A stretch of DNA of 40,429 nucleotides, taken from Candidatus Raymondbacteria bacterium RIFOXYA2_FULL_49_16 (lineage in GTDB: Bacteria > Fibrobacterota > OXYB2-FULL-49-7 > XYB2-FULL-49-35). The stretch lies in contig MFYT01000063.1 of assembly GCA_001789205.1 (NCBI GenBank), positions 1 through 40,429 on the forward strand, written 5' to 3'. The position numbers and the translations under genes are program-made. Below are positions 11,637-38,101 of this stretch, one piece after another (position 1 is the first letter of the stretch; every line of letters begins with the position of its first letter). The notes beneath the pieces were generated by a model. That model was not told the origin of the DNA. It did not search any database and saw nothing but the letters and a program-made list of their open reading frames with translations.

Positions 11637-12341
11637 ATGTTATCAATTATTAAAATAATGGTAGCCACGGCGCTATTCTCTGTGCCGGTTCTTTTTGCAT
11701 ACACAGAGAACGCTGTGATTGTAAACTACATTAAGCCAGCCGGGAGTTCGGTCGGAGACCTTTGCATGGATCCTCTGTTGCTTACCAATGTTCTCCAGAA
11801 CGAATTGACCCAGACAGGAAACTTTCAGGTCCGTGACAGGTCCATTGTCTTTGGCACAGAAGAGCTTCGACAGTTGTCCGCAACAGCTGAATATTCCGCT
11901 TACGATGCCACCATTCTTGGCCAAAGAACCGGCACTCCGCTTGTAGTCATGGGATGGATACGATGCATGGGTGATAATGTATGGATAAAAATCGGGCTTT
12001 TTGACACTGAAATGGAGGAAGAAATAAAAAGCGTTTCAGGGTCCTATACAAATTCACGTGAAGAAATGACAGACCACGCTATTCCAGATCTTGTAAAAAA
12101 CCTTATCAGCGTTAAAAAACGCTCCAAGGCCAATGACGCACTCGCGATTGAGTCGATCAAGGATACCGAGCCTGATATGGCCGTGGCAAAACCCGCGCAT
12201 ATCAAGTCCTCATATGTGAGATGGGCCCTGATCGGCGGAGCCCTTACCCTCTCAGCCGCATATATAATTGAACTGCTTTCCAGTCCCTCTTCCGGGCCGG
12301 CAAATGGAAATGTAAATACGGAAGTCGTTGCAACATGGTGA
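11637..12341 (+). CDS. CsgG/LpoB-like secreted protein with C-terminal hydrophobic segment
   Basis: 234 residues with an excellent AAGGAG ribosome site. A signal peptide covers about residues 1-21 (FSVPVLFA, cut after Ala21). Residues 25-160 resemble the nucleotide-binding-like fold of CsgG/TolB/LpoB proteins: an early strand AVIVNYI, then LTNVLQNELTQTGNFQVRDR, and VMGWIRCMGDNVWIKIGLFD. A hydrophobic segment lies at about 195-213. No lipobox is seen. Such proteins act in the periplasm at the outer membrane, in secretion or envelope assembly; the exact role here is unknown. It overlaps the lipoprotein gene by 7 bases, so the two are probably made together. Confidence 0.7.
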   Translation: MLSIIKIMVATALFSVPVLFAYTENAVIVNYIKPAGSSVGDLCMDPLLLTNVLQNELTQTGNFQVRDRSIVFGTEELRQLSATAEYSAYDATILGQRTGTPLVVMGWIRCMGDNVWIKIGLFDTEMEEEIKSVSGSYTNSREEMTDHAIPDLVKNLISVKKRSKANDALAIESIKDTEPDMAVAKPAHIKSSYVRWALIGGALTLSAAYIIELLSSPSSGPANGNVNTEVVATW

Positions 12342-14890
12342 GAAGGTTTCTTCGCCAGTCTTTTTGTTTCGTACTGTGCATGCTCTTCTTCGGTGCGTGC
12401 GAACGCACTATGCCCACAAGCGCTGATACTACAACAAAAATATCAATCCAAATCTCCTGGAAAATTGGGGATCAAACCGTTGTTCCGAATATTGACAGCG
12501 TCAGGATCACCATTCAATCAACGGCGTTTCTCTCAAAACGGGTGAACATTTTCCCTTTTTCCAAAGGGACCGGTGAAATTGAAGAAGTACCCAGCGGTAT
12601 CGATATTATTATTACCGTTGAAGGGCTTGACGCTGATGACAAGGTACTGTTTGCCGGAAGCGCTGCCTGCAAAGGGATACTGGAAGGGGAAATAACAGTC
12701 CCTGTTGCGGCCTATTTTATTGTTCCGCAAGATACCCTGGGTCCGGTCATTTCCCTGCTCTCGCACCAAAATCCGGACACGGTAAATTCACGGATAGTGA
12801 GGATTTTTGGTCAAGCGCTGGATTCAAGCGGCATTTCCGCTTTTATGGTGAATGACTCCCTGGTTCCTTGTTCCGATTTTTTTTGGGATTTTCATGGCTT
12901 TATGTTGCAGAATGGCAGGAACACAATACGGGTGAAGGCCATTGATAATAGTTACGAAAAAAACGTATCCACGAAAGACATTGTTTTGTATTACAACCCT
13001 CTCTATGTTGAAAAAACAAACCATGCCCCGCATTTTACAGTGAGTGCAACAAGTTTGACCGCAACGCTTAAAGCAGGCGACATCTATCAAAAGGCCCTGA
13101 GCGTGATTGATCAGGATTCGTTCAACGTGCTTACCTTCAGGATCAGCCAGCCATTTCAGATTTTACTCGACACAAGCGTGTTTTTCAGGACCCAATTGTC
13201 AGACACAGGTACATATGCCGTATGCGCCTATGTGCTTGACCAGGACAGCGCCATGGACTCCATTGCATGGACCGTCACGGTCGTTAATCCTGCCATCAAT
13301 AACACGCCTGTTTTCCTGACACGCTCCCAGGAATTGTTCAGAGAGGTATATGCCGGTTCCGCGTATTGTGATACGGTAATCGCTTCAGACTTGGACCAGG
13401 AAGAAGGCCTGGTTTATTCGATTTCCAATAATGGCGGTTGCGCTGTACTGATCGACAACCTCTCCGGGATCATACGCTGGACGCCTGGTCCGGAAGAAGT
13501 GGGTACGCATGCAATAACCATCCAGGTAAAAGACGATTCAAACGCAATGGCAACGCTTGTCTGGACTGTTACCGTAAAACATCCGAACGTGCTCGTTTTT
13601 TCCGCGGGCAACGATAGCGTCTATTCAATAAACGACACCATCCAGCTCAATCCGGCAATAAGTTTGGCATCAGGGTCTGTATTGCGTTATGAATGGAAAA
13701 TTGGCAATACCGGCATATGGCGCACTGTCTCAAGACCAGATACGGTAATTATCGCGCCTTCCACGCCTATTGACTCCTACACCTGCATATTGCGGATAAC
13801 CATTTCAACAGGCGACATGCTCGAAAGCCGCTCCAATATCCGGATCTCCCTTGACCCACCGCAAGTGTCCGCGGGAAAAGACAGCGTTGTGCTGCGGAAC
13901 CGCGTGGTAAACCTCATTGGCCATGCAATTGACCGCTATGGTTCAATAATAAAGACAGAATGGGACATTGGCAATACCGGTGTTTTTACGGAATCAGCGG
14001 ATATGCGCGCCTCGTTTACCATGCCCGGCAGCAGTTCAGTCTATCGGTGCGTTTTTCGCGCAACCGATGATGACCTGAATGTTTCATCTGACACGGTCAC
14101 ATTCAGGATATTGGAATCAGCCATGTGCTTTATTCAGCCGGATTCGGGGATCGCGTGTTCAATCGGCGTATCTTTTTCCATGGGTTCTACCAGTGAAGAG
14201 TCTGATGAAAGACCAGAGCACATGGTCACAGTGCAGTCGTTCTACATAGACTCTTTTGAAGTGACCCAGGAAAAGTTTTTAAATATAATGGGCGTGCAAC
14301 CATCGAGCGCGGCATACGATCATAGCAAACCGGTTGAAAGCATTACCTGGTTTGACGCGGCATTGTACTGCAATACCATTAGCAAGCACCAAGGGTTTGA
14401 TACGGTATATCAATATTCAGGAATAGAGGGAAATCCTGGCAATAACTGCACCATGCTTCAAAACCTGATCATCAGGCATTCGGCAATTGGTTTTCGCCTG
14501 CCCACAGAAGCTGAATGGGAATGCGCATGCAGGGCCGGAACAAGCAGCCTTTATTACTGGGGCAATGACCAGACACAGGCGACTTTTTTCGCCACGTTCG
14601 GCGGCAATACCATTGTCGAACCCTCGTATACCGGCGCCAAGCAGCCCAATGGCTTTGGTTTGTACGATGTGGCCGGCAATGTCGCAGAATGGTGCAATGA
14701 CTGGTATGGCCCCTACAGTGCTGGGCTGGCAAATAATCCAATTGGGCCAAGCGAGGGCAGCGCAAAGGTAATCCGCGGGGGCAGCTGGCAAGACAATGTG
14801 AATGAACTGCGCTCTTCGAACCGCAGTTTAGGCATGCCAGGATGGAAAAGCAGTTTTGTGGGATTCAGGACCGTGCTGCAGGTGCAATGA
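12335..14890 (+). CDS. Large lipoprotein: Ig/cadherin-like and PKD-like repeats plus FGE-sulfatase-fold domain
   Basis: 851 residues. A lipoprotein signal ends at FFGAC, giving acylated Cys22. The middle has Ig- or cadherin-like modules (about 235-415, with HAPHFTVSAT and GIIRWTPGPEEVGTHAITIQ) and two PKD-like modules (about 418-590, each with an EWxIGNTG motif). The last 250 residues are an FGE-sulfatase (SUMF1-type) domain: FSMGSTSEESDERPEHMVTV, GFRLPTEAEWECACRAG, GLYDVAGNVAEWCNDW, RGGSW. The paired catalytic cysteines of true formylglycine-generating enzyme, which follow RGGS, are absent, so it is probably a binding or surface-display module. The final 26 bases overlap the converging ATPase gene. 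Confidence 0.9.
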   Translation: MVRRFLRQSFCFVLCMLFFGACERTMPTSADTTTKISIQISWKIGDQTVVPNIDSVRITIQSTAFLSKRVNIFPFSKGTGEIEEVPSGIDIIITVEGLDADDKVLFAGSAACKGILEGEITVPVAAYFIVPQDTLGPVISLLSHQNPDTVNSRIVRIFGQALDSSGISAFMVNDSLVPCSDFFWDFHGFMLQNGRNTIRVKAIDNSYEKNVSTKDIVLYYNPLYVEKTNHAPHFTVSATSLTATLKAGDIYQKALSVIDQDSFNVLTFRISQPFQILLDTSVFFRTQLSDTGTYAVCAYVLDQDSAMDSIAWTVTVVNPAINNTPVFLTRSQELFREVYAGSAYCDTVIASDLDQEEGLVYSISNNGGCAVLIDNLSGIIRWTPGPEEVGTHAITIQVKDDSNAMATLVWTVTVKHPNVLVFSAGNDSVYSINDTIQLNPAISLASGSVLRYEWKIGNTGIWRTVSRPDTVIIAPSTPIDSYTCILRITISTGDMLESRSNIRISLDPPQVSAGKDSVVLRNRVVNLIGHAIDRYGSIIKTEWDIGNTGVFTESADMRASFTMPGSSSVYRCVFRATDDDLNVSSDTVTFRILESAMCFIQPDSGIACSIGVSFSMGSTSEESDERPEHMVTVQSFYIDSFEVTQEKFLNIMGVQPSSAAYDHSKPVESITWFDAALYCNTISKHQGFDTVYQYSGIEGNPGNNCTMLQNLIIRHSAIGFRLPTEAEWECACRAGTSSLYYWGNDQTQATFFATFGGNTIVEPSYTGAKQPNGFGLYDVAGNVAEWCNDWYGPYSAGLANNPIGPSEGSAKVIRGGSWQDNVNELRSSNRSLGMPGWKSSFVGFRTVLQVQ
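14843..14879 (+). repeat. 37-bp direct repeat, left copy
   Basis: This stretch encodes WKSSFVGFRTVL near the end of the lipoprotein gene. It is identical over 37 bases to 16149-16185. On the other strand it supplies the last codons and stop of the DUF4143 ATPase gene. Confidence 0.95.
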
Positions 14891-20530: not shown

Positions 20531-22669
20531 TTAAATGAGTTTTTGGATCACGGCCAGCAGATTACTCTGATCAAAACTGCTTTTTACAATATAGGCGTTC
20601 GCGCCGGCGTCAATGCCGCGCTCCTTGTCTTCACGCGATTCAAGCGCGGTCACCAGCACCACCGGCAAATCACTAAGCTTTTTATCAGCCCGGATTTTTG
20701 TTGTTAACTCAAATCCGTTCATACGCGGCATGTCCACGTCCAAGACCACAAGGTCGAACTCATTGCTGCGCACCTGGGTCAGGGCGTCAACGCCGTCAAC
20801 GGCCGTGGCAACCTGATAGCCCGCGGTTTCCAGGATGTTCTTGAGCAGCGTGCGCGAGGTGATGGAGTCTTCGGCCACGAGTATTCTTCCTGTACTGGAT
20901 TGGGCCTTGGCAACAACGTTTTGTTCCCGGGGTGCTGCAGAGGTTTGTATCGCTGATTTTATCAGGTCAGCCACATTGAGCACAGGCACGACCTTGCCCG
21001 TGCCAAGAATTGTTGCGCCCGCGATGTTGCGCACGCTTTCCAGTTGCGGCCCCAGCCCTTTGACCAGCACCTCCTGCTCCTGCAAAACCTCATCGACCAT
21101 AAATGCCATGCGCTTTCCGGCATAGGCGAGGACAATTACTGGCAAATGCGATGTCTTTGCACTATTGGACGGTTTAGGCGCTACAGGCAGTTCAAGGGTC
21201 TTGCTCAGGCGGGCCATTGACAGCACCTGCCCGTCCAGCCGGATGGTTTCGCGGTTTTCGACTGTTTTGATGTCTTCCTTTTTCACTCTCAGCACGCGTT
21301 CAACATTGACAGCGGGAAGAACAAACAGAGACTCGTCCGCTCTTACCAGAACACCCATGAATGTGGCCAGCGTCATGGGCAGAACAAGCCGCAGTGCGGT
21401 ACCATCCCCTATCCGGCTTTCCACGGACACACTGCCGCCGAGTTTTTCCGCCTTTTCGCGCACAATTGCCAGGCCCAGACCGCGGCCTGAAATATCAGTG
21501 ATCATTGGGCTGGTGGAAATTCCGGAATGAAAGATGAACTCTAATGCCTCCCTGGAATCGATCTGCTGCGCAGCGCCTGCGGCCAAAAGCCCCTGTTTTA
21601 TTGCTGCTGCCCGGACTTTGGTCAGATCAATGCCAGTACCGTCGTCTGAAATGGAAATTTCCATCTGGCGGTTGTCTTTTGCCGCAAAGCACAGCCGGAT
21701 TGTCCCGGATGGACTCTTGCCCAGTTGCGCGCGTTCTTCGGGCTTTTTCATACCATGGTCAACGCAGTTGCGGAAAATATGGATGAGCGGGTCTTTCAGT
21801 TCATCGAGAATGCGCTTGTCTATCTTTATCTCCGCGCCATGGACAATCAGTTCCACCTCTTTTCCCTGCGCATGCGCAAGATCGCGGACCATTTTTGGAA
21901 AAATTTCCACAAGCGTGCTGACTGGCAGCATTATGAGGCTTTTCATTGCCTCCAGGTGTTCATCCACCATGCGCCGGAGCGCGCGCAGGTCCTGTTCAGC
22001 GGCCCGGGTCGCAGCGTCTATCCGGCCCCGGATCGTTTTCAGTCCCTCATCTGTCCTGCACAAGTCAAGCATACCGCTTATCTCCTGTAATTCCCTGACA
22101 CGCTGTTCCGCGGCCATTTTAACATAGATCATTTCCTCGGCCTGGAGCAGCAGGGGATCAAGCTTTTTAACCGGTATCCTTACCGTGTCCGCCTGTACCA
22201 GACGCCTCTCCGTGACAGTCTGTGGCAGTGAATTCTCAGGCTTTATGTGTATCGGAGCCCCTTTGGCTACTGCGTTCAACCGGCTTACCAGCTCTCCGGT
22301 CTGTTTCAGCCCTGTTTTTGCCGGTTCTGTTTCCGAAGGCGGAACAAGCAGTGTAATGCAATTTACGGTTTGATGGAGCAGGTCCAGCAGGGCCGGGTCA
22401 AGGGAAATGTTCCTTTTTTTCAGGGAAAAAAGCGCGGCCTCAAGCGCCTGGCAAAGTGTCTCGATTTCCGCCAGATTCACGGAACGCGCTGCGCCCTTAA
22501 GGCTGTGCGCCTCACGAAAGAGGTTTTCGGTCACTTTTGCCCGGTCCTCGGTTTCCCCGGCTTTTTCAAGCTCCATCAGGAATGTGGACATGGCACGGAC
22601 ATGCTCCCCGGCTTCTATCCGGAATGTTGCCCGCAGCCGTTTGAGGAATTCGCCGTTCTTTGTGTCCAT
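20531..22669 (-). CDS. cheA: CheA-receiver hybrid kinase (WspE-like)
   Basis: 712 residues. The N-terminal Hpt domain has phospho-acceptor His55 in REAHSLKGAAR. A dimerisation region follows, then the ATPase domain with N-box IFRNCVDHGMKKPEER (about 298-313), G1 DDGTGI and G2 GRGLGL. A CheW-like domain (about 435-575) binds the array. A C-terminal receiver (about 595-712) has Asp644 in VVLDVDMPRMNGF and Lys696. No separate P2 docking domain is obvious. The attached receiver is the hallmark of WspE/FrzE-type kinases from non-flagellar chemosensory systems. The receiver may act as phosphate sink or output. Confidence 0.95.
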   Translation of the reverse strand: MDTKNGEFLKRLRATFRIEAGEHVRAMSTFLMELEKAGETEDRAKVTENLFREAHSLKGAARSVNLAEIETLCQALEAALFSLKKRNISLDPALLDLLHQTVNCITLLVPPSETEPAKTGLKQTGELVSRLNAVAKGAPIHIKPENSLPQTVTERRLVQADTVRIPVKKLDPLLLQAEEMIYVKMAAEQRVRELQEISGMLDLCRTDEGLKTIRGRIDAATRAAEQDLRALRRMVDEHLEAMKSLIMLPVSTLVEIFPKMVRDLAHAQGKEVELIVHGAEIKIDKRILDELKDPLIHIFRNCVDHGMKKPEERAQLGKSPSGTIRLCFAAKDNRQMEISISDDGTGIDLTKVRAAAIKQGLLAAGAAQQIDSREALEFIFHSGISTSPMITDISGRGLGLAIVREKAEKLGGSVSVESRIGDGTALRLVLPMTLATFMGVLVRADESLFVLPAVNVERVLRVKKEDIKTVENRETIRLDGQVLSMARLSKTLELPVAPKPSNSAKTSHLPVIVLAYAGKRMAFMVDEVLQEQEVLVKGLGPQLESVRNIAGATILGTGKVVPVLNVADLIKSAIQTSAAPREQNVVAKAQSSTGRILVAEDSITSRTLLKNILETAGYQVATAVDGVDALTQVRSNEFDLVVLDVDMPRMNGFELTTKIRADKKLSDLPVVLVTALESREDKERGIDAGANAYIVKSSFDQSNLLAVIQKLI

Positions 22670-22684
22670 TGTATTTGACCGCCT

Positions 22685-24319
22685 TTAAACCTTGAACTGT
22701 TCCACTGTTCCCTTGAGTTTCTGTCCCAGTTCGTACAGGTTCTTTGCCGTTATCTCCGCCTGTTTCATGCTCGCCGCTGTTTCTGACCCTGCCTGGTTGA
22801 TGTTCTCCATGGCTGTACCTATCTGGTTCATTCCCACCACCTGCTGCTGGCTGGATGCCACTATCTGAATGGCTGCCTGCACAGCCTCTCCGCTGCTCTC
22901 TGCCAGCACCTGGATGGCCTCTCCGGCCTGCACAGACTGCTTTACCCCGGCATCCACTGCCTTGCTCCCCTGTTCCGTGGCCATGACAGCAGCGCTGGTG
23001 GCCTTCTGCACATCGTTCAGTATGGTGCGCACCTGGGCCGTTGCGTGCTTTGACTGTTCCGCAAGGTTCTTGATCTCCTGCGCAACCACGGCAAATCCCT
23101 TGCCCTGTTCCCCTGCCCGGGCCGCCTCGATGGCCGCATTGACTGCCAGAAGATTTGATTGATCGGCAATGTCCGAGACCGAGGCGATGATTCCGCCAAT
23201 GGACTGTCCCTGCTCGCTCAGGCTGACAATGGTCCTGGTAATCGCCTCCATCTGGCCACGGACGGCAAGCATGCCGGCAGCGGCCTCTTCCACGGCTTTT
23301 TTCCCGGATTGAAAGACCTGGGACACACGCTGCGCGCTGTCCGAGACGTTCTTTGCCTTGTCCGATGAAAGCTGCGCCGCCTGCCTGACCTCCTCCACCG
23401 TGGTCGTGGTCTCACCTATGGCAAATGCGTTTTCGGCCGTGCCCGAAGCCACCTGGGTGGTTGCGGCAAGGATTTCAGAGGAAGAACTTATGAGGGTATT
23501 TACGGCTTCTTGAATCCCCTGTATCTGTTCCCGCAATGTCTCCCCCATGCTGCTCAGGGATCGCAGCAAGTCACCCAGCTCATCGCCCCGTTTCTTGTCC
23601 GCGGAAAGCTCAACGGTCAGGTTCTTCGAGGCGATCATGTTCGCCGCGTTCACACTCGCCCTTAACGGCCTGATTATGCCCAGGGTCAAAAAGATGGCTA
23701 TTGCCAGGGCAAGAACGATCGCCACGGCCCCAATCAGATACATGAATGTGCGCGCATTTTCCTGCGCAATGTTCGCCTCATCGTACCGTAACGCGGTGCG
23801 CGTTTCACTATGCCGTACAAGATCGTCCACGTTTTCTATCCATTGACCCACCGCGGGACTCGCTTTCCCGGTCATCAGACCAAAGGCTTCGCTGTGCTTG
23901 CCTGCCACGGCCAGATCGAGTACGTCATTGTTCAGCGCCCGTGAGATCTCCTGGGAAGCTTTGACCTTGGAAATCATACCAACCGCTGCCGTATCGTCGG
24001 ACGGGGTCAGTTCCTTGACTTTCTTCAGGTTATCGTCGTAAACCTTCCTATTTTCAGCGATCGCGCTTCTTATTTCCCTGGCCTTTTCTGTGTCCTTGAA
24101 CAGCAAGGCCGTACGCATGGCGATAGATACCTCCCTTACATCAGCGATCATACCATTGGCCGATTGAACGCAGACACTGTTAATTTTTACGATACGATCA
24201 AGCTTGTCATGACTGGCGGCCATCTGATTAATACTAACTATAATTATTAAAATCATAAAACCAATCACCAGGCAGAAGCCCAGCGCCAAACGCAATCCGA
24301 TTTTCATGTTTTTAAACAT
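22685..24319 (-). CDS. Methyl-accepting chemotaxis protein, four-helix-bundle sensor
   Basis: 544 residues. Membrane helix 1 (about 9-30) and helix 2 (about 192-213) flank a periplasmic four-helix-bundle sensor of about 160 residues. A HAMP domain follows (about 214-267), then the cytoplasmic coiled coil with the conserved tip [20 protein letters not shown] (about 383-402) that docks CheA and CheW. There is no C-terminal CheR-binding pentapeptide. It is the only receptor in the cluster, lying between cheW and cheA, so the array is probably dedicated to it. The ligand is unknown; WspA, its positional analogue, senses surface or envelope stress. Confidence 0.95.
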
Positions 24320-24330
24320 ACCTTGCTCCT

Positions 24331-24882
24331 TTAATTATTTTCAGATTCAACGGCCGATTTGTCCACGATTATTTTATTATCATCTAATATTTTTTGCGCA
24401 TCGAGTATGACCATGCGTTCTCCCGTAACGCCTTTCAAATATTCCGCGCCAATTCCGGCTATCGTGACGGGAGGCGCCTGGATCGCCGCACGCGGGACAG
24501 ACCGTGTACCGAGAATGGCATCGGCAAGAATTCCGAACTCCATCTGGCTGTTTTTGAGGATAATCACCTTATTGAGTTCGCCCAGGCCCTTGTCCGGCAG
24601 ATTGAAGAACTTCTTGAGATCAACCACCGAAAGTATCTGCCCGTGCACATTGGTGATGCCCAGTACAAAGGCCGGCACGCCCGGAAGGGGCGTGAAATCT
24701 TTCAGCGGATGTATTTCGCGCACAAAGGCCGATTCAATGCCGTATGTTTCAGACGCAAGGACAAACTCGACAATTTCGAGGAATTCATGTCCGGATAGCG
24801 CCTGTCCGGGTTCGCGCGCCAGGGCCCGCGCCCGCGTTCTGAGAACAGTGTCCTGGTTCTGCGCCATGTGGTCCTGTTTCAT
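24331..24882 (-). CDS. cheW: CheW coupling protein with N-terminal extension
   Basis: 183 residues. About 35 charged residues precede the CheW fold, which starts at [22 protein letters not shown] and includes [23 protein letters not shown]. It links receptor and CheA. The ATG overlaps the stop of cheR as ATGA, so translation is coupled. The extension and the position after cheR match WspD; the second cheW lies just before cheR. Confidence 0.93.
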
Positions 24883-26309
24883 GCCAATGCTCCAGTTTCA
24901 ATGGTGACAAGAATTATTTCCTTTAACCTGCCGGCCGTCAGCCCTTCGGATTCGGGCAGAATATCTTCGGGCCGGTTCTTTTCAAGAAGCGCAAGCGCGT
25001 TTTCGAAATGTTTTTTTGCCAGCCGCGCATTTCCCTGCCGCAGCGCCATTGTGCCCAGCGTAAAATGGGCCAGCAGGAAATTCTGATCTATATAGAGCGT
25101 CCGTTTCAGGGAAGCGCCTGCTTCCGTAAGCCGGTTCATTTCCTGGAGAATGATCGCGCGCAGATAATGCATTCCGGGATTAAGCTTGTCTGAAGCCAGG
25201 GCTTTTTCGCACACAGCCAATGCCTCGGTGAGTCTGCCCTTGTCCGCCAGCGCCCGGATTGAGAAGGCCTTTGAAGGCAATGCTTCTTTTTCAATTTTCC
25301 CGGGTATTTCCAGCGCAATTGCCTGAACGGGTTGTTCCATAACAGGAACAAATTTGCTCTGTGGCGGTAATTCGATGGCAGTTACAGGAGTTTTATCATC
25401 TCCGGAGAATTGGAATAGCGTCGGCGTTTCATACGGGAGAATCTTTGGCAATGGAGACATTGTGTGGTCTTTCCGGTAGGCAATTACGCCGGGAAAATGG
25501 ACCGGGGCAAACTGGGGAAAGAGGGCCTGCGAAAGTTCGCTGGCGCCCACCATCAGCCATCCGCTATCCACAAGTGAGCGGTAAAGATCCTTGCCCACCT
25601 GTCTGGCGCGCTCAGGCGCAAAATACATGAGCACATTGCGGCAGAAGATGATATCCATGGCGTTTGTGTTGTTTACCGGGGAGGGATAAATGTCTTCGGC
25701 CAGGTTCAGATAAGAGAATGTGACCATCTTTTTGATTTCAGACAGAATCTCAAACACCCCGTCCTTTTTGCTGTGAAAGTAACCATCGGTAAGCCACTGC
25801 GGCGCATTGCGGAACGACCATTTGCTATAAATGCCAGCCATTGCCTTGCGCAGAATACGGGGATTTATGTCCGTGGCCAGAATTGTAATATTCCAATCCG
25901 CCAGGTCAGGTATGGCCCTTTTAAGCGCTATTGCGATAGAATATGGTTCCTCGCCTGTTGCGCAGCCTGCGCTCCAGATTCTCAACCGTTTATCGCCTTT
26001 TTCCCGTTCCCGGACCATGGCTGGTAAAATTTCCCCGCAAAGAGCTTCAAAAGCCAACGGTTCCCGCCAGAAATATGTCTCATGTATTGTAAGATGGCTT
26101 GCCAGCATATCCATCTGGCTGGCGGTTAATGGCGCGGACAATAGCCACTGAACAAATTGTTCATTGCCAATAAAACCGAATTCTTTGGCCGCGTTACCAG
26201 CCTTGTATTCCAGGTCGCCCCACCGCTCTCTGGGAAAATGAAGCGCGGTCCTTGCCGCGATCATTTCGCTCAATTGAGACATCAGACTGTCGGGAAGCGT
26301 ATGGTTCAT
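24879..26309 (-). CDS. cheR: CheR chemoreceptor methyltransferase with TPR tail (WspC-like)
   Basis: 476 residues. The N-terminal helical domain and SAM-dependent methyltransferase fold (1-280) show HETYFWREPLAFEAL, the SAM-binding motif IWSAGCATGEEPYSIAI, LATDINPRILRKA and IIFCRNVLMYF. After a linker, residues about 348-450 form tetratricopeptide repeats (ALAVCEKALASDKLNPGMHY, AHFTLGTMALRQGNARLAKK). CheR-TPR fusions are typical of WspC and other non-flagellar systems, where the TPR part assists receptor binding; this fits an MCP lacking the tethering pentapeptide. It overlaps both flanking cheW genes by 4 bases. Confidence 0.94.
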   Translation of the reverse strand: MNHTLPDSLMSQLSEMIAARTALHFPRERWGDLEYKAGNAAKEFGFIGNEQFVQWLLSAPLTASQMDMLASHLTIHETYFWREPLAFEALCGEILPAMVREREKGDKRLRIWSAGCATGEEPYSIAIALKRAIPDLADWNITILATDINPRILRKAMAGIYSKWSFRNAPQWLTDGYFHSKKDGVFEILSEIKKMVTFSYLNLAEDIYPSPVNNTNAMDIIFCRNVLMYFAPERARQVGKDLYRSLVDSGWLMVGASELSQALFPQFAPVHFPGVIAYRKDHTMSPLPKILPYETPTLFQFSGDDKTPVTAIELPPQSKFVPVMEQPVQAIALEIPGKIEKEALPSKAFSIRALADKGRLTEALAVCEKALASDKLNPGMHYLRAIILQEMNRLTEAGASLKRTLYIDQNFLLAHFTLGTMALRQGNARLAKKHFENALALLEKNRPEDILPESEGLTAGRLKEIILVTIETGALA

Positions 26310-26810: not shown

Positions 26811-27929
26811 TCACATGTGCTTTACATACACTTGCCCCAAAGTAGTGGCATGCGAATTATAAATCAAGTCGAAAGTCCCTGAAACCTTCTCGAATGCATC
26901 CAGTACCGCTGGATCAAAATGTTCCGGCTTAGTCCTGCCGTCACCCTCCTGAAGAATCTGGCACGTTTTGGTGTGCGCCAGCGCTGGTTTGTAGGGCCGT
27001 TTGCTGCGCAGGGCATCGTACTGGTCGCAGATAATCACGATCCTGCAAGCGGGTGGAATGTCTTCGCCTTTTTTCGCCCGGGGATATCCACTCCCATCCC
27101 ACCTCTCGTGATGGCCAATCGCAACTTCGGAGGCCATTGTAATGAGCGGTACCTCTGATTCTGAAAGGATCTTCGCGCCTATTGTGCAATGCGACTTCAT
27201 TGTGTCAAATTCCGCCGGAAGCAGAGGTCCTTTTTTCAACAGGATAGAGTCGCTTATCCCTATTTTGCCGATATCGTGCATGGAACTTGAAACCGCTATA
27301 GTCTCGCAGAGCTCTCTTGGCATGCCCATGGTAGCTGAGAGGGTCGCCGCATACATGCCAATCCGCTTAATATGCCTGCCAGTTTCATCGTCACGGTATT
27401 CAGCGGCGACCAAAAGCCGGTCGAGCATTTCGCGCGAAGCGCGCTCCAATTTGTCCATGGCGTTATCAAGGTCGGCCGTTCTTTTCTTCACGGTCCGTTC
27501 CAATTCAGATTTGTATTCTCTTTCGAGTAGCAGCAGTCTGTGGTAATCGGCAGCCTTCCTAACCACTGCGGAGAGGAAACCGGGGTCAAAGGGCTTAAGG
27601 ATGAAGTCAAATGCCCCGGCTCTCACGGCTTCGGCAGCAAGCGCCAGTTCCGCGTAACCAGTTAATAAAATGACCGGAACTTCGGGCCTTGCCGAACGTA
27701 CCCTTTTCAGCAGATCGATCCCTGTTCCATCGGGCATTTTAATGTCGCTCAAAACCGCCACGACCGGTGATATGCTGAACAGCGCCAACCCTTGTTTCAC
27801 GTTCTCCGCAGCCTGCACCGTAAAGCCATCCTCGGTCATCAACTGAACTATCATGTCCCGTACCTGCTGGTCGTCATCGACAACAAGCAGTTCAGCAGGT
27901 TTTCCGTTTTTTACAAACTCATTTGTCAT
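26811..27929 (-). CDS. Receiver-HD-GYP c-di-GMP phosphodiesterase response regulator
   Basis: 372 residues. The receiver (about 12-128) has the acidic residues DDD at 18-20, Asp62 in [13 protein letters not shown], and Lys112. A helical linker leads to an HD-GYP domain (about 160-355) with the full set of motifs: His186, HDIGK (218-222), [11 protein letters not shown] (273-283) and [13 protein letters not shown]. It should hydrolyse cyclic di-GMP, as RpfG does, under phosphorylation control. It precedes the chemosensory genes by 28 bases and overlaps the upstream receiver gene (ATGA), so CheA is its likely kinase. This would make the array lower c-di-GMP, opposite to Wsp. Confidence 0.93.
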
Positions 27930-30681: not shown

Positions 30682-30800
30682 GGGACCCCCATTGTAAAAT
30701 TTATTTCTTTTTCAGCACAAGTGATTATTGCGTGAAAATCAGCGTGTTCCCTTTCAAAAATCGCCTCTGCCTCAGTATCAGTTTTACCCAGCATAGGCAT
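30633..30800 (-). CDS. Possible small protein (55 aa) overlapping the acyltransferase end
   Basis: It starts at ATG 30800 or 30794, inside the 3' end of the GNAT-fold gene, with the sequence GKTDTEAEAIFEREHADFHA. The first 38 residues look protein-like and the rest, which overlaps the 41-aa frame, does not. Possibly it is the front half of one small gene whose rear half is now out of frame. Function unknown. Confidence 0.3.
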   Translation of the reverse strand: MPMLGKTDTEAEAIFEREHADFHAIITCAEKEINFTMGVPCAGLRTRKSRMKSRN

Positions 30801-31617
30801 GCTCTGGCTGATGATTGCTCTTTACGGGCAGTCTGAGCCTCTTGGTCTTAAGGTTGGCCCTGAAATAGGTTTGCATCTGGAAATGGGTACGGCTGAGGGT
30901 AGCGAACTTTTGCTCGTGCAGCATGCAGTCCTTACGCATAAGACGCCACCTCTTAAGGTCTTGGCCATAGCGCACAAAATGGCCCGAATCCTGGAAAAAA
31001 AGCCGTTTGGTGTACATATTTTTCAGTTCAGGCGAATCGCCGTCGCAGGTAATGTACGAATAGACTGTATTTGTCTGCACGATCTTTGCCCAAATGGCCT
31101 TAAAAAGCATGTTCACCACAACGCAAACAGCCCTGTGGCCAAGCTCAAAGGAACGTCTGAGACGGTAAATTTCAGAGACAATGCAGTCGCCGCCCACATC
31201 CAACCCTGTACTGAAATGGTCTCCAGCCCGTTCTCCATCGGCAAGCACGGCATATTCCACTGGCAGCTTCAGCTTCCGTGATTTAACAATGTATTGGGCG
31301 CATCCAACAATTGTTGACCCTGTATCCCGGACAATAAAGGTTGCAGCTGTAGACCAATACTGGCGGTCGTAGGCGATTTCCTGGGACCGGTGCGGTAAAT
31401 CAGCAGGATAGCAGAAATTGAGGAATTCTCTGCGAAGTTCCTCGTCCATCTCCATTATCAGATGTTCGGACAGGGTAAAACCGCAGTTGTCGTCGAAATT
31501 AATAGGAGAAGCGATCCTGGGAAGGGTAAAAAACGACGAAAAATAGCTGATAGTGTTCCAATGATTTTTATGAACACGGCTGAGAATCCGGTCAACAATG
31601 CCGGCTTGGTTGCTCAT
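30784..31617 (-). CDS. GNAT-fold acyltransferase, LuxI/FeeM-like
   Basis: 277 residues, no signal or membrane segment. The pattern resembles N-acyl amino acid synthase (FeeM) and LuxI-type autoinducer synthases: an early segment EELRREFLNFCY, the core strand STIVGCAQYIVKSRKLKLPVEY, then VSEIYRLRRS (compare E-x-S-R-L in that group), an amphipathic helix VVVNMLFKAIWAKIV and a late YTKRLFFQDSG. Such enzymes join a fatty acyl chain to an amino acid or S-adenosylmethionine. The resemblance is by motif pattern only. The start overlaps the upstream kinase stop as ATGA, so synthesis is coupled to a sensor. Confidence 0.6.
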   Translation of the reverse strand: MSNQAGIVDRILSRVHKNHWNTISYFSSFFTLPRIASPINFDDNCGFTLSEHLIMEMDEELRREFLNFCYPADLPHRSQEIAYDRQYWSTAATFIVRDTGSTIVGCAQYIVKSRKLKLPVEYAVLADGERAGDHFSTGLDVGGDCIVSEIYRLRRSFELGHRAVCVVVNMLFKAIWAKIVQTNTVYSYITCDGDSPELKNMYTKRLFFQDSGHFVRYGQDLKRWRLMRKDCMLHEQKFATLSRTHFQMQTYFRANLKTKRLRLPVKSNHQPEHAYAG

Positions 31618-32408
31618 GCTGCAAAAGAGGTTTCCTTGAGGGGAAGAAAAATCTCGAAAAGCGCTCCCTCGCCTTTTTTGCTGACAACATGTATGGTGCC
31701 GCCATGCGATTCGGCAAAAAGCCGCACATTGGTAAGGCCAAGGCCAGTGCCTTTTTCACCCTTGGTAGTAAAATAGGGCGTAAAAAGATTTGGCAATATG
31801 TTTTCGGAAATACCCTTGCCGCTGTCCTGCACGGCAATGATGACATACCTGCCGTCGGTTTCAATTGCCCTTGCCGAGATGGAGACAATGCCAGGCCCAT
31901 GCATTGCCTGGGCGGCATTTACCACGAGGTTGAGCACGGCGTTTTGCACATGCTGGGGAAAAGCCTGCACATAAAGCGGGTTTGCCGGCACGTTTAAATG
32001 CACCATTATTGATTTATCTATTATGACGTCTGCGGAAATTGCCGCGTCTTCAAGCACTTTGCAGACATCGACAAGAGGTTTTTTGCCAACTGGTTTAGCC
32101 TTGAGCTCCATGATTGTGTCAAGCGCCTGGCGTGCCCGTTCAACGATGAGATCGCAATGTTTTTTCGCGGTACTGCCTTCGGGTTCGCGCATGCCCAGAA
32201 GCGTGGCATGGCCAATAAGAACATGCACTGTATTACGAAAATCGTGGAGGGTGCGGGAAACCGAACTCAAGTATTCGTCAAGGTCCATGGCACTGTCAAC
32301 TTTCCCCATGGGTGGAAAAGTTTTTTCTGACGACTGCGCAACCGATTGCCCGCATCCTGCCACGAGGGGATTTCCTTTTTGCCGTGAAAGTTCAAGTAAT
32401 TGATTCAT
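31614..32408 (-). CDS. Small soluble histidine kinase
   Basis: 264 residues. There is no sensor domain: about 45 N-terminal residues precede a HisKA-like hairpin with His55 in SRTLHDFRNTVHVLIGHATL. The ATPase domain (about 145-258) has N-box NLVVNAAQAM, G1 QDSGKGI and G2 GTGLGL. The true start is uncertain: ATG 32408 has a weak ribosome site, and internal ATGs exist at residues 34 and 41. The 161 AT-rich bases upstream (32409-32569) separate it from the receiver-AraC gene and probably hold a promoter, but I see no clear -35/-10 pair. A likely partner is the receiver-AraC protein. Confidence 0.85.
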   Translation of the reverse strand: MNQLLELSRQKGNPLVAGCGQSVAQSSEKTFPPMGKVDSAMDLDEYLSSVSRTLHDFRNTVHVLIGHATLLGMREPEGSTAKKHCDLIVERARQALDTIMELKAKPVGKKPLVDVCKVLEDAAISADVIIDKSIMVHLNVPANPLYVQAFPQHVQNAVLNLVVNAAQAMHGPGIVSISARAIETDGRYVIIAVQDSGKGISENILPNLFTPYFTTKGEKGTGLGLTNVRLFAESHGGTIHVVSKKGEGALFEIFLPLKETSFAA

Positions 32409-32569
32409 ATCTTACAATTAAAGATAATCTAAAATTCTGAAAAAAACAGGCCCATTACCTACATACTTTTTGTCAAAACAAGCAACTTTTCTTGCTAATT
32501 TATGCTGTTTTTAATAAATTTAACGAAAATACAATAACTTGTTGTCTATTTAACAAATAAATTAACTAG

Positions 32570-33268
32570 TTAAATATGCAGGCCAAAAAGGAGAAAAAAA
32601 GTTGAAACATGCTCTTTTAGCAGCCTGGTAGATGAATACCCCAGTATAAAAGCCTTTTCTTCCATGGTAAAATGCGGCCTGATCAATTGAAGGCCCACGG
32701 CTTTTATCCGCTTTCGAAAATCCAAAAAGTCCTTGAATGAATAGCCAAGTGCGTCTTTTATCGAGCGTTTAAAACGCCAATCGTCAGGTTCTTTCCCGAT
32801 AACACCTCTGACTTCGTCATAATATCCGACAAAGGCCGTTTTCCTGCGTTCTAATGATTCCGCGAACCCTTTTTTAAGCCCAGCGAGAATCACTTGAAAT
32901 CCTTTGTTCTTGTCAATAAAAAAGTCCGGGTTGCACCTGCCTGCCTTAAACGCGGCATCAAAAGTATGGCCTGTTACCGCTATGGTATATGTTGTTGGCG
33001 ACGCTTCTTTCACCGAGAGAATAACTTTATCGCCCGACATGCCCGGCATATTTATATCGCTTATGCATACGTCGATATATGCCTGTTCCAAAAGGGCAAG
33101 AGAGTGCTCTGGTTCAAGACAGCTAAAGACCACGGTATTGGGCTGGCTCCGCACAATGGCCTCGCAAAGCGTTCCTAAAAAGAGGTCGTCATCGTCCACC
33201 ACAAGCACAGACCTGAACACTTTTTTAAAATCAGCCTTCTCTCCAAGAAAAGCTTTTATATGGGCCAT
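32570..33268 (-). CDS. Receiver-AraC-type response regulator
   Basis: 232 residues. The receiver (about 20-140) has the acidic run DDDD at 25-28, Asp71 in VCISDINMPGMSG and Lys120 or Lys122. The C-terminus matches an AraC/XylS DNA-binding domain from its first recognition helix on: GYSFKDFLDFRKRIKAVGLQ, then the second helix-turn-helix MEEKAFILGYSSTRLLKEHV and a final FFLLFGL. The first helix-turn-helix is degenerate. It begins 2 bases after the hybrid kinase stop, so the two are co-transcribed. The stop codon lies inside the perfect palindrome TTAACTAGTTAA (32562-32573). Confidence 0.82.
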   Translation of the reverse strand: MAHIKAFLGEKADFKKVFRSVLVVDDDDLFLGTLCEAIVRSQPNTVVFSCLEPEHSLALLEQAYIDVCISDINMPGMSGDKVILSVKEASPTTYTIAVTGHTFDAAFKAGRCNPDFFIDKNKGFQVILAGLKKGFAESLERRKTAFVGYYDEVRGVIGKEPDDWRFKRSIKDALGYSFKDFLDFRKRIKAVGLQLIRPHFTMEEKAFILGYSSTRLLKEHVSTFFLLFGLHI

Positions 33269-33270
33269 GC

Positions 33271-35835
33271 CTACCCCCTTTTTTCAGAAAGCCTGTTAAA
33301 AGCATTCAGGAGCATTGGTCCATCAACTGGTTTTGAAAGTACTATCTCTCCTTCGGCCGGCCTTCGGATATTTACTGCAATATATCCTGTCATGAAAAGA
33401 AGCCGTATGTCCGGCCTCCGTAAGCGGATTTTATCAGCTAGTTCAACGCCGTCTATATCGGGCAAAATAATGTCGAGTACCGCGTACGAGACGGATTTTG
33501 CCCGTTCCCCTTCGAACCAGCGCAGCGTATCCTCGCTGTTGGCGAACTCTATTGTGGCGTAACCCTTTTTCTGGAGCATTTCAGCTACATACTCCCGGAC
33601 AAGGTTATCATCATCTACCACCATGACCAAACCATTGGTCGACATGCTGCTTCCTTTCAAGGCCGCGATATCGTGTTGCTCCCCTGCTGCCAAGGGAAGT
33701 TCAATGGCAAACGTGGCGCCTTCACCTGGCCGGGAATCGACCACTATATTGCCCTGGTGGCTGCGGACAATACCATAAACCACGGACAACCCCAGACCCG
33801 TGCCTTTGCCCTTTGTCTTGGTCGAGAAAAAAGGGTCAAAAATCTTCTCAATGATGTCCGGGGAAATACCGCCGCCAGTATCAGCCACTTTGATAAGCGC
33901 CAGCGCATTGGTCGACTCCGTGGTTATAGTTATACTGCCCTCTTTTTTTCCAATAGCGTCGCGCGAATTCATACACAGATTGAGGATACACTGGTGCAAT
34001 TTGCCTGGATCTCCTTTGACCACCAGGGGTTTTGTATCCAATACCAGGTTGACCGTGGTGCCTTTGTCCACTATGGGAATCGCCAGGTCAGCAACCTCCG
34101 AAACAACCGTATTCACGTCAAATAATTCAGACCCGCCCATGTCACCCCTGCTGAAGGTGCCCAGTTTGTCGATCAGATCGCGTGCGCGTATTGTGGCCTG
34201 GTAAATTATCTGGGCATTGCGGTGCGCCTTGGCGATTTCCGCTTCCTCGAGTATAAACTGGCTGCGGCCATTGATTGAGGTAAGTATATTTTTAAAATCG
34301 TGGGCGAGCCCACCCGCCATTTGTCCTAAAAGCTCCATTCGCTGGGACCGCACAACCTGTTCGTTCAGACGTTTGGTCTCGGTCACGTCCACGCCAATGC
34401 CTGCGACGCCTATAAAGGAACCGCTGTCGTCGAACAAAGGATAACTGTTTAAAGCGATTGATTTCCATTCATTGTTCTTTGTTTTAAAATGCACTTCCTG
34501 GAGTCTGGCTTCTTCGGTCAGCCGGTCCATGAGCCGTTGCGCGTTAAAATCCGCTCCTGGCGCGACCAACTGACCAAAATGCATTTCTTTTAATTCAGCC
34601 TCAGTATATCCGCTCTGCTCTTCCATGGCCCGATTTGCGTACATGAATTTTCCCGAGTGGTCAAAACCAATGATAATGGCTGGTGAATTTTCGTAGAGCG
34701 ACCGGTACCTGTTTTCAGTTGCCTCAAGTTTCTGCTGCATGCGGCGCTTTTCAGTAACGTCGCGCACGCTCACGAGAAAACCAGGCTGTTGCCGTTCATT
34801 GAGCAGGGATATGATGGTAGTATCACCGATCCGTTCCTTTTTCTCAGATGTGATATATGAATACTCCTCGGTAAGCGGCTGGCCATTCTGTTCGCGGCTT
34901 TTTTGCAGCCGGTTTCCATAATATACTGAGGAATATTTTTTTGACATAAAATCCCAAACATGGCGTCCTTCAAATTCCCCGGCTTCCCTGCCAAGCCATT
35001 TGCAAAAAACCGCGTTGGTATAGGTTATCCTTCCTTCAGTATCGAGCCAGATAACGCCCTCGCCAATATTTTCCATGAGATGCCGGTAAAAATTGCGCGA
35101 GGCCTCAATCGTATTGTTGAGGGCGAGAATTTCCGAATATTGCTTTTGGAGGCTCTGGTGGTTTTCCTCCATATGCTGGATAATGGACTTCTGGTCGCGA
35201 ACCCGGAAATTGAACACGTCCACTATCCTGCGGAAAATATTCGGCCGGGGTGTCCAGGTGACTTTGTAGTGGCTGTAGGGTTTACCTTCATTTGACACAC
35301 ACCGAATGTCCTCAATTATTACATCCTGCATTCCTTTTAACCGTAGAGTAGCCAAAGTCCAACCATAATTGAAGTCGTACATCTGGTTTGAATAGCGGGC
35401 CGGCTCATTTGGGATCCACAATATTTCAAGTTCGCCGTCTTTCAACAGTCGAGCTTTGACTTTAAGATTTTTATTCGAGTATTTTTCTACATTTTCGCCG
35501 ATTTTGTGTACTATAACTGAAAGCGGGGCAATCCGTAGAAAAAAAAGGAAAAAATTGCCTACTTCGCTTCGCAATATCTCTTCTGCCACGGAAATCAACA
35601 CTTTTGACCTACCTCCAAGCGCAATTTCGAGTTGTCGGGCCACCTGTGTCCAAGTGAGCCAATCTGTCCATTCCATGGGATTTTCCAGAATGCTTGGTGC
35701 CACTATTACTCCATCCAGAACACGCTCCACCAGACCTTTTTCCCTCGCATATTTTATCATTAGTGACGTGCCGTAACAAGACACTTCCAATGGAACATCA
35801 CCGGCCTTCACAGATAGGTCAACGTTGTTGTCCAA
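33271..35835 (-). CDS. Hybrid kinase: novel N-terminal sensor-PAS-PAS-HisKA-ATPase-receiver
   Basis: About 854 residues using TTG at 35835, which has GGAGG six bases upstream; ATGs at 35865 and 35919 would extend it further into the radical SAM gene. Residues 1-200 form a sensor I cannot name; its second half ([29 protein letters not shown]) resembles 4-vinyl-reductase/XylR_N-like ligand-binding domains. A coiled coil precedes two PAS domains (about 250-362 and 375-490). HisKA has His512 ([14 protein letters not shown]); the ATPase has [16 protein letters not shown] and GTGLGL. The receiver (736 on) has Asp788 and Lys835. It overlaps the radical SAM gene by 17 bases and directly precedes the receiver-AraC gene. 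Confidence 0.88.
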
Positions 35836-37435
35836 AATATGCCTCCCACTCCCGAATAATTTCATCGGGTAAAGTCCGAGTAAAAAGCTCCACTTTTTGA
35901 CTGATGTCATGTACAACACGATAAAAATAGGCCAGATAAAAGGCTAATGCAAGCCGATTGATATTTCCATGATATTTCCAAATCGCCCTCAGCATATAGG
36001 TCCAGTACTGGAACCGGTATCCGGAAAACAGGCCTTGAATAACGATGCTCCGCACTATTCTGATAAAATACAAGTTAGCCGGAATGGAGCCTTTTTTTCC
36101 CGACAATACATATGCGTCGTTCCACCCATCGATCCACCTGAAACAGCGGTTAAAATATTCCACAGGAGCATAGACAGTTTTGATAAATTTCAGGTACCCC
36201 GAGTAAAATGTCTTTGGATGTTGGCGTAAAATGACATTTGTTCTAAACGATTTGGTAATGGCATCTTTGTCCCGTGAGATACGACCCGCTTCAAACAGCC
36301 GCTTATAGAGCCGCGTGCCCAGAGGTGCCTGCAGCACCGACATGCCGGATAATGGAATGTTGGATTCGCGGATGAAACGGATCTGTCCATCCACAGCCTC
36401 TTCGTCGTCCTCATCAAACCCAAGAATAAGTCCGGCAATAATTCCCATGCCATAACGCTGCAATTTCCGTACTTTTGCGACCTGGTCTTTTTCAAGGTTC
36501 TGGTTTTTCCTCACCGATGCCAGCGCTTTTGTGTTCAGCGTCTCAATCCCCAAAAACATGATATTAACCCCGATAGCCGCCATCAATTCCACGATATCAT
36601 CGTGGTCGGCAATCTCAAGGGAGCACTGGGAAAAGAAATCAAAGGGAAAATCCCTTTCTTTCTGCCAATCGCGGATGGCCTCAAGCAATGCAATGAATTC
36701 AGCCCTGTTTTTTTCCTGATTGATGTTTCCCATGAAATTGTCGTCAACTATGTAGACAGTCTTACCCTCGCCGCTTGCATGCAGCAGATTCAGCTCGTGT
36801 AAAACCTGGTCAATGCTCTTTCGCCGATGGCGACCATAGAGTGCCACCATCTGGCAGAACTCGCAGTTATTGTGGCAACCGCGCGACGTCTGGAGCGAAA
36901 CGTTGAAATAACTTCCCCCAGAGAGCAAATCATAGCGGGGTGGTGAAATTTCGCGTAAATCAGGGTGTCCTGAAGCCCTATAAATCTTTCTCAAAATCCC
37001 CTTGCGCATATCATCAGCCAATTGACGGGCGATGGTCTTCTCGCTATTATCGCATAGACTTTCAATTTCGCCGATCACTTTTGAGACATTATCGTTTTCG
37101 AACACATGGTCAAGAGTCGGCAGCAATGGACCGCCGATAACTATCGGCTTGTTAAAACTTTTAAAATATCCGACTAAACGTTCGGCTGATTTCCGTTGAA
37201 GGATATTGGATGAGATAAAGATGAAGTCCGCCCATTGCTCATGGGTATCACGCACATCCTCAACCTCCTCGTCGATAATAGTGTAATTCCAGTCAGGCCC
37301 CATTGCGCCAGCGACTGTTATAAGGGAAAGAGGATAAAATTGGCCCTTCTGCCCGAATATCTCGTTCAAAGGGCTGAAATTGTAAAACCCTTTGTCTGTT
37401 TTTGGCCACACGAGAAGAATGTTTTTTCCAGCCAT
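35819..37435 (-). CDS. B12-binding radical SAM protein (DUF4070 type)
   Basis: 538 residues. The N-terminal 150 residues are a cobalamin-binding Rossmann-like domain (NILLVWPKTDKGFYNFSP, FIFISSNILQ, VIGGPLLPT). The radical SAM core has the 4Fe-4S cluster motif CHNNCEFC and TVYIVDDNFMG, then GLILGFDEDDEE. The C-terminus (HPKTFYSGYLKFIKTVYAPVEYFNRCF) matches the DUF4070 tail. Such enzymes carry out radical methylations or rearrangements on lipids, cofactors or natural products; the substrate is unknown. It overlaps the next gene, a kinase, suggesting that its product or substrate is sensed. A truncated relative lies just upstream at 37512. Confidence 0.9.
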   Translation of the reverse strand: MAGKNILLVWPKTDKGFYNFSPLNEIFGQKGQFYPLSLITVAGAMGPDWNYTIIDEEVEDVRDTHEQWADFIFISSNILQRKSAERLVGYFKSFNKPIVIGGPLLPTLDHVFENDNVSKVIGEIESLCDNSEKTIARQLADDMRKGILRKIYRASGHPDLREISPPRYDLLSGGSYFNVSLQTSRGCHNNCEFCQMVALYGRHRRKSIDQVLHELNLLHASGEGKTVYIVDDNFMGNINQEKNRAEFIALLEAIRDWQKERDFPFDFFSQCSLEIADHDDIVELMAAIGVNIMFLGIETLNTKALASVRKNQNLEKDQVAKVRKLQRYGMGIIAGLILGFDEDDEEAVDGQIRFIRESNIPLSGMSVLQAPLGTRLYKRLFEAGRISRDKDAITKSFRTNVILRQHPKTFYSGYLKFIKTVYAPVEYFNRCFRWIDGWNDAYVLSGKKGSIPANLYFIRIVRSIVIQGLFSGYRFQYWTYMLRAIWKYHGNINRLALAFYLAYFYRVVHDISQKVELFTRTLPDEIIREWEAYFGQQR

Positions 37436-37511: not shown

Positions 37512-38000
37512 TTAAATTCCCCATGTTCCAGTCCTGACCTCACCCTGAAGGAATTGGTTGATAAAATTCCCCTCTCCCCATGGGGGGAGAGGGGGGATTA
37601 CCGGATGAATGTCCTTTCGGGGTGAGGTCAGTGCCCGATAGTGAGGTATAATATCGCAATGGGGCCGGACAACATCAGGACAAAGGCTCGCAAAGGGACC
37701 GCCGATAATCACCCGTTTCCCCCGCTTCCTGAATTCAGCGGCGATCGCCCTCATGCGCGCCCATTGGGAAACTTTTCCGGTTATGCCAATGTAATCGCAC
37801 GCGGTATTAAAATCAATTACCTGCGCTCCTTCATCGCACAGTGCGATATCCAGATAAGAAGACGCCATGGCGGCCACGGTTGTTATGGATTGATCAGCGG
37901 AATATATTTTAGGCGGCAATCCCCACTGGGCATACACCTCAGTCCCAAAATAATTGGGGAAGTCCGTGGCTGGATTGATCAAATAAATCTTTTTTCTCAT
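37512..38000 (-). pseudogene. Truncated B12-binding radical SAM protein
   Basis: From ATG 38000 the frame reads KKIYLINPATDFPNYFGTEV and continues to IIGGPFASLCPDVVRPHCDI, the cobalamin-binding N-terminal domain of radical SAM enzymes. After about 120 residues it enters a palindromic repeat and stops at 37512. No radical SAM core or cluster motif remains. It may have been the partner of, or a duplicate of, the intact enzyme downstream. Confidence 0.8.
37534..37631. repeat. Palindromic MITE-like element
   Basis: Imperfect terminal inverted repeats, CTGACCTCACCCTGAAGGA (37534-37552) and the complement of a near-match (37612-37631), flank a central GC-rich hairpin CCCCTCTCCCC-AT-GGGGGGAGAGGGG (37569-37594). 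It interrupts the B12-binding radical SAM gene. Confidence 0.85.
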
Positions 38001-38101
38001 ATGAGATTGAAAAGTATAAGTACTGAAAACACTATAAGGCAAGCAAATTGAATAAAGACAACAAATCAGAGAGTTATATTATTGCAACATAGACAGCCAC
38101 A

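Follow-up and report, generated by a model that had tools for sequence, protein, structure and literature searches.

A predicted FeeM/LuxI-type synthase gene co-inherited with a V4R-like hybrid kinase gene, and usually linked to a radical SAM gene, in the phylum Fibrobacterota

In the LuxM/LuxN and AinS/AinR systems of Vibrio, the gene for an acyl-signal synthase adjoins that of a hybrid kinase which senses the product, with no LuxR-type receptor. RpfF/RpfC/RpfG is the DSF fatty-acid quorum sensing system, with output via an HD-GYP protein (PMC5391125). Hydrophobic molecules are the presumed ligands of V4R domains (PMC2253512), and the zinc site of DmpR contains Cys151, Cys177, and Cys185 (PMC7264223). 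V4R-PAS kinases are already known, such as PcrS (PMC10715001). In the literature searched, we found no description of a LuxI/FeeM-type enzyme paired with a V4R kinase, nor of a lipid-like small-molecule signalling system in the phylum Fibrobacterota. Here, we investigated a locus in a 40,429-nucleotide stretch of DNA, referred to as the window (contig MFYT01000063.1 of Candidatus Raymondbacteria bacterium RIFOXYA2_FULL_49_16). A first-pass annotation had read five consecutive genes of this window as one signalling system; only three are linked in other genomes.

Layout and conservation of the locus

All five open reading frames are present where the first-pass annotation placed them, on the minus strand, and the gene junctions it described are seen as well. 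The features are as follows.

37435..35819, minus strand: B12-type radical SAM gene with DUF4070; usual third module member; CxxxCxxC at residues 187-194
33271..35835, minus strand: V4R-PAS-PAS-HisKA-HATPase-REC hybrid kinase, 854 aa; module core, from domain matches
35186..35835, minus strand: N-terminal V4R-like sensor domain of the hybrid kinase, from family comparison
32570..33268, minus strand: regulator with receiver and AraC-like HTH domains; a local neighbour that may be an output
31614..32408, minus strand: 264-aa kinase, HATPase_c, with no recognised sensor; local neighbour
30784..31617, minus strand: 277-aa FeeM/LuxI-type GNAT, predicted acyl-synthase; module core, from profile homology
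37512..38042, minus strand: remnant of a second radical SAM gene (group B, N-terminal part), 46-49% identical to those of L020 and L022

A TTG at 35835 is the start codon of the hybrid kinase, which overlaps the radical SAM gene by 17 bases; an alternative open GTG lies upstream at 35919. Two bases separate the end of the kinase (33271) from the start of the receiver-AraC gene (33268), and the ATGA at 31614-31617 is common to the small kinase and the 277-aa gene. An AT-rich gap of 161 bp (32409-32569) lies between the third and fourth genes. Therefore, the first three and last two genes may be two transcripts. A long minus-strand run of two-component genes, which reaches 26811 and adjoins a chemosensory cluster, has the five genes at its upstream end. 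That cluster (20531-26309) encodes a CheA-type kinase with a receiver, an MCP with a 4HB sensor, and a CheR with TPR, and several hybrid kinases adjoin it. On the plus strand, within the minus-strand signalling run, positions 12335-14890 encode an 851-aa protein with a C-terminal FGE-sulfatase (sulfatase-modifying-factor-like) domain. A sigma-70-type scan gave more matches than shuffles.

We searched 168 genomes of the phylum using the N-terminal 200 residues of the kinase as a profile. This domain and the 277-aa family occur in identical sets of 13 of the 168 genomes (the window's and 12 others), for which the chance probability is 1/C(168,13) = 1e-19 when kinship is ignored. No homologues of the 277-aa protein were found outside the phylum among the 392 genomes searched. 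DNA surrounding the loci was extracted and the neighbour genes were compared. The 277-aa gene and the kinase adjoin on one contig in 11 of the 13 genomes, and the other two genomes have contig ends compatible with this adjacency. A radical SAM gene adjoins in 11 of 12 testable loci; the number of such genes expected by chance is 0.006-0.044 per 10 kb, and below 0.05 in any module genome. A match at L013, the sole one in the genome-contig search, overlies a MutS2-like gene and is probably due to chance.

The order of these genes varies. Radical SAM, kinase, and 277-aa gene follow one another in the window (with two additional genes), L016, L019, L024, L025, and L027+L015; the last two are one genome (G055), with the kinase divided between contig ends. 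The order is 277-aa gene, radical SAM, and kinase in L017, L020, L021, and L022, where the L022 kinase is interrupted by a contig end. In L026, the kinase is divergent from the radical SAM and 277-aa genes; in L023, the 277-aa gene and kinase are convergent without a radical SAM gene; and in L018, the kinase and 277-aa gene are followed by a contig end. Linkage of the three genes was thus kept despite reordering, which is strong evidence that they function jointly. The neighbourhood proposed by the first-pass annotation was therefore borne out for a three-gene core, which stays together, and not for all five genes. Every other module locus compared lacks orthologues of the 264-aa kinase and of the receiver-AraC gene, and we no longer count these two genes as system members. 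The receiver-AraC gene matches Response_reg (E 6.9e-13) and HTH_18 (E 0.002, 18.8 bits vs a Pfam cut-off of 33.6).

The predicted synthase, the sensor kinase, and the radical SAM enzyme

The 277-aa protein had been proposed to be LuxI/FeeM-like, and profile comparison agrees. Neither Pfam nor NCBIfam gives a match for the window copy, and its homologues give weak matches, mostly to GNAT or autoinducer-synthase-like families. These include Pfam FeeM (best E 0.057, under Pfam's FeeM cut-off), an exosortase-system acyltransferase (E 0.081), Acetyltransf_1 (E 0.15), and Acetyltransf_5 (E 0.18). The nearest solved structures by sequence are Naa10-type protein N-acetyltransferases, at a weak E of 0.26. 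The LBL_2463 family, matched weakly by 6 of 12 members, was set aside, as no convincing homologues outside the phylum and no papers were found. A FeeM profile of 4 sequences was too small, and one built from 23 proteins of the 392 genomes, a set that includes related acyltransferases, worked. Compared by hhalign, the 277-aa family matched this profile at P 9.6e-8 (Prob 94.3%) over 118 columns. The elements in register are LPVE, E149-I-Y-R152, the LFK helix, and LY-x3-L-x-F, with E149 and Y151 invariant in the family and R152 nearly so (ExxR). A reduced alignment scored 40.1 vs no more than 18.1 for 150 column shuffles, 10.9 for the reversed profile, and no more than 18.8 for unrelated profiles. 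The match and the far lower decoy scores mark the 277-aa protein, at the sequence level, as a GNAT of the FeeM/LuxI type, broadly defined. An AlphaFold2 model built from the single sequence alone has a mean pLDDT of 31, too low for it to be used.

The hybrid kinase contains matches for PAS, HisKA, HATPase_c, and receiver domains. Its N-terminal part, listed as an unknown sensor by the first-pass annotation, can now be described as a V4R-like domain, predicted to bind a small molecule. V4R profile matches fall at the same position in 5 of 10 homologous N-termini (best E 0.00037), all under the 31-bit cut-off, and the window copy has no such match. Shuffle tests speak for V4R in 9 of the 13 sensor copies, the window copy not being among these nine, and the profile-profile score of sensor against V4R is a modest 24.6 vs a shuffled maximum of 22.2. 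The sensor family carries the motif C153-x4-G-x3-small-x13-E176-x2-C179-x8-C188. Residues C153/E176/C179/C188 parallel C140/E163/C166/C174 of the phylum's true V4R proteins, whose pattern also includes G145 and G149, and the cysteine spacing reproduces that of the DmpR zinc site. Of the four putative metal ligands, the window copy retains only C179, with Y153, D176, and S188 in place of the others. These features point to a V4R-like domain with DmpR-type putative metal-site spacing. No obvious membrane helix was seen in the hybrid kinase (maximum 19-residue hydropathy of 1.7 in the window copy). In genome G055, the V4R-like sensor also occurs in one more protein (L027:4774-6210, 478 aa), encoded 1.5 kb upstream of the radical SAM gene of the module, in which a kinase is present and a PAS match was not seen.

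The window radical SAM protein has DUF4070 and CHNNCEFC at residue 187 (CxxxCxxC). Alone, it gives no match to PF02310, whereas group-C members do. Orthologues at 51-55% identity adjoin the kinase in L016, L019, and L027. Together with the window copy these make up group A (49-57% identity); L020 and L022 make up group B (58%), and L017, L021, and L026 make up group C (46-51%). The L024 protein also falls in group A, at 33-34% identity, and that of L025 stands alone outside groups A-C. Identity between groups is ~14-30% in a multiple alignment. Judged from these identities, the module draws its radical SAM enzyme from at least three divergent, exchangeable subtypes. All members keep CxxxCxxC except that of L024 (L024:12777-14267, genome G037), whose gene is still directly upstream of the kinase. 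As L023 has no nearby radical SAM gene and L024 lacks the cluster cysteines, tailoring would not be universal.

The remnant at 37512-38042 matches the complete radical SAM proteins of L020 and L022 over 123-125 aa, and no CxxxCxxC remains in it. Since it is of the group-B type, the window locus probably once carried two radical SAM kinds side by side. At the end of the remnant is an inverted repeat, CCCCTCTCCCCCCATGGGGAGAGGGG, which is GC-rich and scores as terminator-like; no exact copy was found in the other module loci compared. Small ORFs of 94-118 aa between the radical SAM gene and the kinase in three loci are dissimilar and probably not genes.

Proposed mechanism and alternative explanations

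The module could work as follows. The FeeM/LuxI-type synthase would make an acylated small molecule, which a B12-type radical SAM enzyme, differing in kind between genomes, would usually tailor. The cytosolic hybrid kinase would then bind this product through the V4R-like pocket at its N-terminus, relaying the state via phosphorylation. In the window only, the adjoining receiver-AraC regulator would be the likely output. We are evenly divided over whether the three parts act in this way, as synthase, usual tailoring enzyme, and product-sensing kinase. Any feedback or population sensing would be putative, and the term "enzyme-linked small-molecule sensing module" is within the evidence, whereas "quorum sensing" is beyond it.

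Similarity among the loci bears on what might set the ligand. Synthase and sensor similarity are weakly correlated across genomes (Mantel r 0.27). With the synthase held constant, sensor similarity tracks radical SAM similarity (partial r 0.38, permutation p 0.016) when 10 loci, a small and related sample, are compared post hoc. The reverse partial test on the 10 loci found no association (p 0.29). The pattern is clearest in one genus, where L018 and L026 share 65% in the synthase and 32% in the sensor. L026 has a group C radical SAM enzyme, and L016, of the same genus, has one of group A. This fits a radical SAM step that would set the ligand. A bolder version, in which a lineage-specific synthase makes an acylated molecule, interchangeable radical SAM enzymes diversify it, the V4R-PAS kinase reads its final form, and specificity changes by a joint swap of tailoring enzyme and receptor, would be a new form of signalling; we regard it as tentative and rather unlikely.

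The main alternative, which we take seriously although we would not bet on it, is that the kinase senses something else, such as an aromatic compound or one derived from the membrane. The product of synthase and radical SAM enzyme would then have no feedback on the kinase, which would control a small lipid or secondary-metabolite pathway that includes both enzymes. Known V4R regulators and V4R-PAS kinases indeed answer external phenolics beside the genes they control (PMC7264223 and PMC10715001), and FeeM relatives also make N-acyl amino acids with no known signalling role (PMC11580390). The weak correlation between synthase and sensor similarity also favours this explanation. However, apart from the module itself, the loci share hardly any genes for biosynthesis or transport. 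Furthermore, kinase and synthase are never apart in the 168 genomes, and a pathway regulator would be expected to be replaced occasionally.

Inseparable occurrence would also suit an enzyme and its protein substrate. The GNAT might modify the kinase or another protein, with the kinase reporting the modification or the supply of acyl donor. The V4R relative Bet3 holds a palmitoyl chain, and this, like the weak Naa10-type structure matches (E 0.26), is in favour of protein acylation. We nevertheless consider it improbable, as the FeeM-type match is far stronger (P 9.6e-8) and the recurrent radical SAM enzyme would be left unexplained. Least probable, to a degree that we reject it, is the original five-gene unit, in which a single loop would include the AraC-type regulator as well as both kinases. 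The tight junctions and shared strand in the window speak for it, and in L017, too, another kinase and receiver come after the module kinase. However, two of the five genes have no counterparts at other module loci, and the 161-bp gap divides the run.

The three-part module, in which the kinase senses the synthase product, is thus our preferred reading, and it gives the phylum a candidate for lipid-like small-molecule signalling that is concrete enough to test. If the kinase does read that product, this would be a case of a V4R domain whose ligand is defined and self-made, and of a signal diversified by B12-type radical SAM chemistry.

Comparison with known systems

Like FeeM (PDB 2G0B) and the LuxI AHL synthases (PMC9654057), to which it has profile homology, the 277-aa family has ExxR and the C-terminal GNAT elements in register. 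Unlike them, it has added N- and C-terminal parts, is encoded with a kinase, and falls under the Pfam FeeM cut-off. On the sensor side, a V4R-type domain lies ahead of a signalling output, as in DmpR, MopR, and PoxR, and ahead of PAS and kinase domains, as in PcrS. The Cys-to-Cys spacings are 26 then 8 in known V4R sensors and 26 then 9 in the module family, and the window copy differs from DmpR-type sensors in lacking three of the four metal ligands. DmpR, MopR, PoxR, and PcrS answer external phenolics beside degradation genes, whereas the module sensor adjoins a synthase.

As with RpfF/RpfC, a lipid-signal synthase (here predicted) is encoded with a hybrid kinase. However, RpfF is not a GNAT, RpfC senses via membrane helices, and Rpf is without a radical SAM enzyme. 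Some loci also have HD-GYP genes nearby. Three with a coiled-coil front, 50-69% alike, lie on the opposite strand (L019:7619-8515, L020:1829-2782, and L022:14911-15840), and a receiver-HD-GYP gene at 26811-27929 lies ~2.9 kb from the window module. By analogy with RpfC/RpfG, a cyclic-di-GMP output is possible.

LuxM/LuxN and AinS/AinR share with the module a synthase gene that adjoins a hybrid kinase, although the module's ligand is inferred. They differ in that LuxM and AinS belong to another family of synthases, LuxN is a membrane receptor, and no radical SAM enzyme is involved. The linkage and co-inheritance of synthase and hybrid kinase genes expected of circuits of the LuxM/LuxN and RpfF/RpfC kind were found here as well. 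The module, which resembles these circuits and is made of other parts, seems to be a small-molecule sensing circuit that had not been described before.
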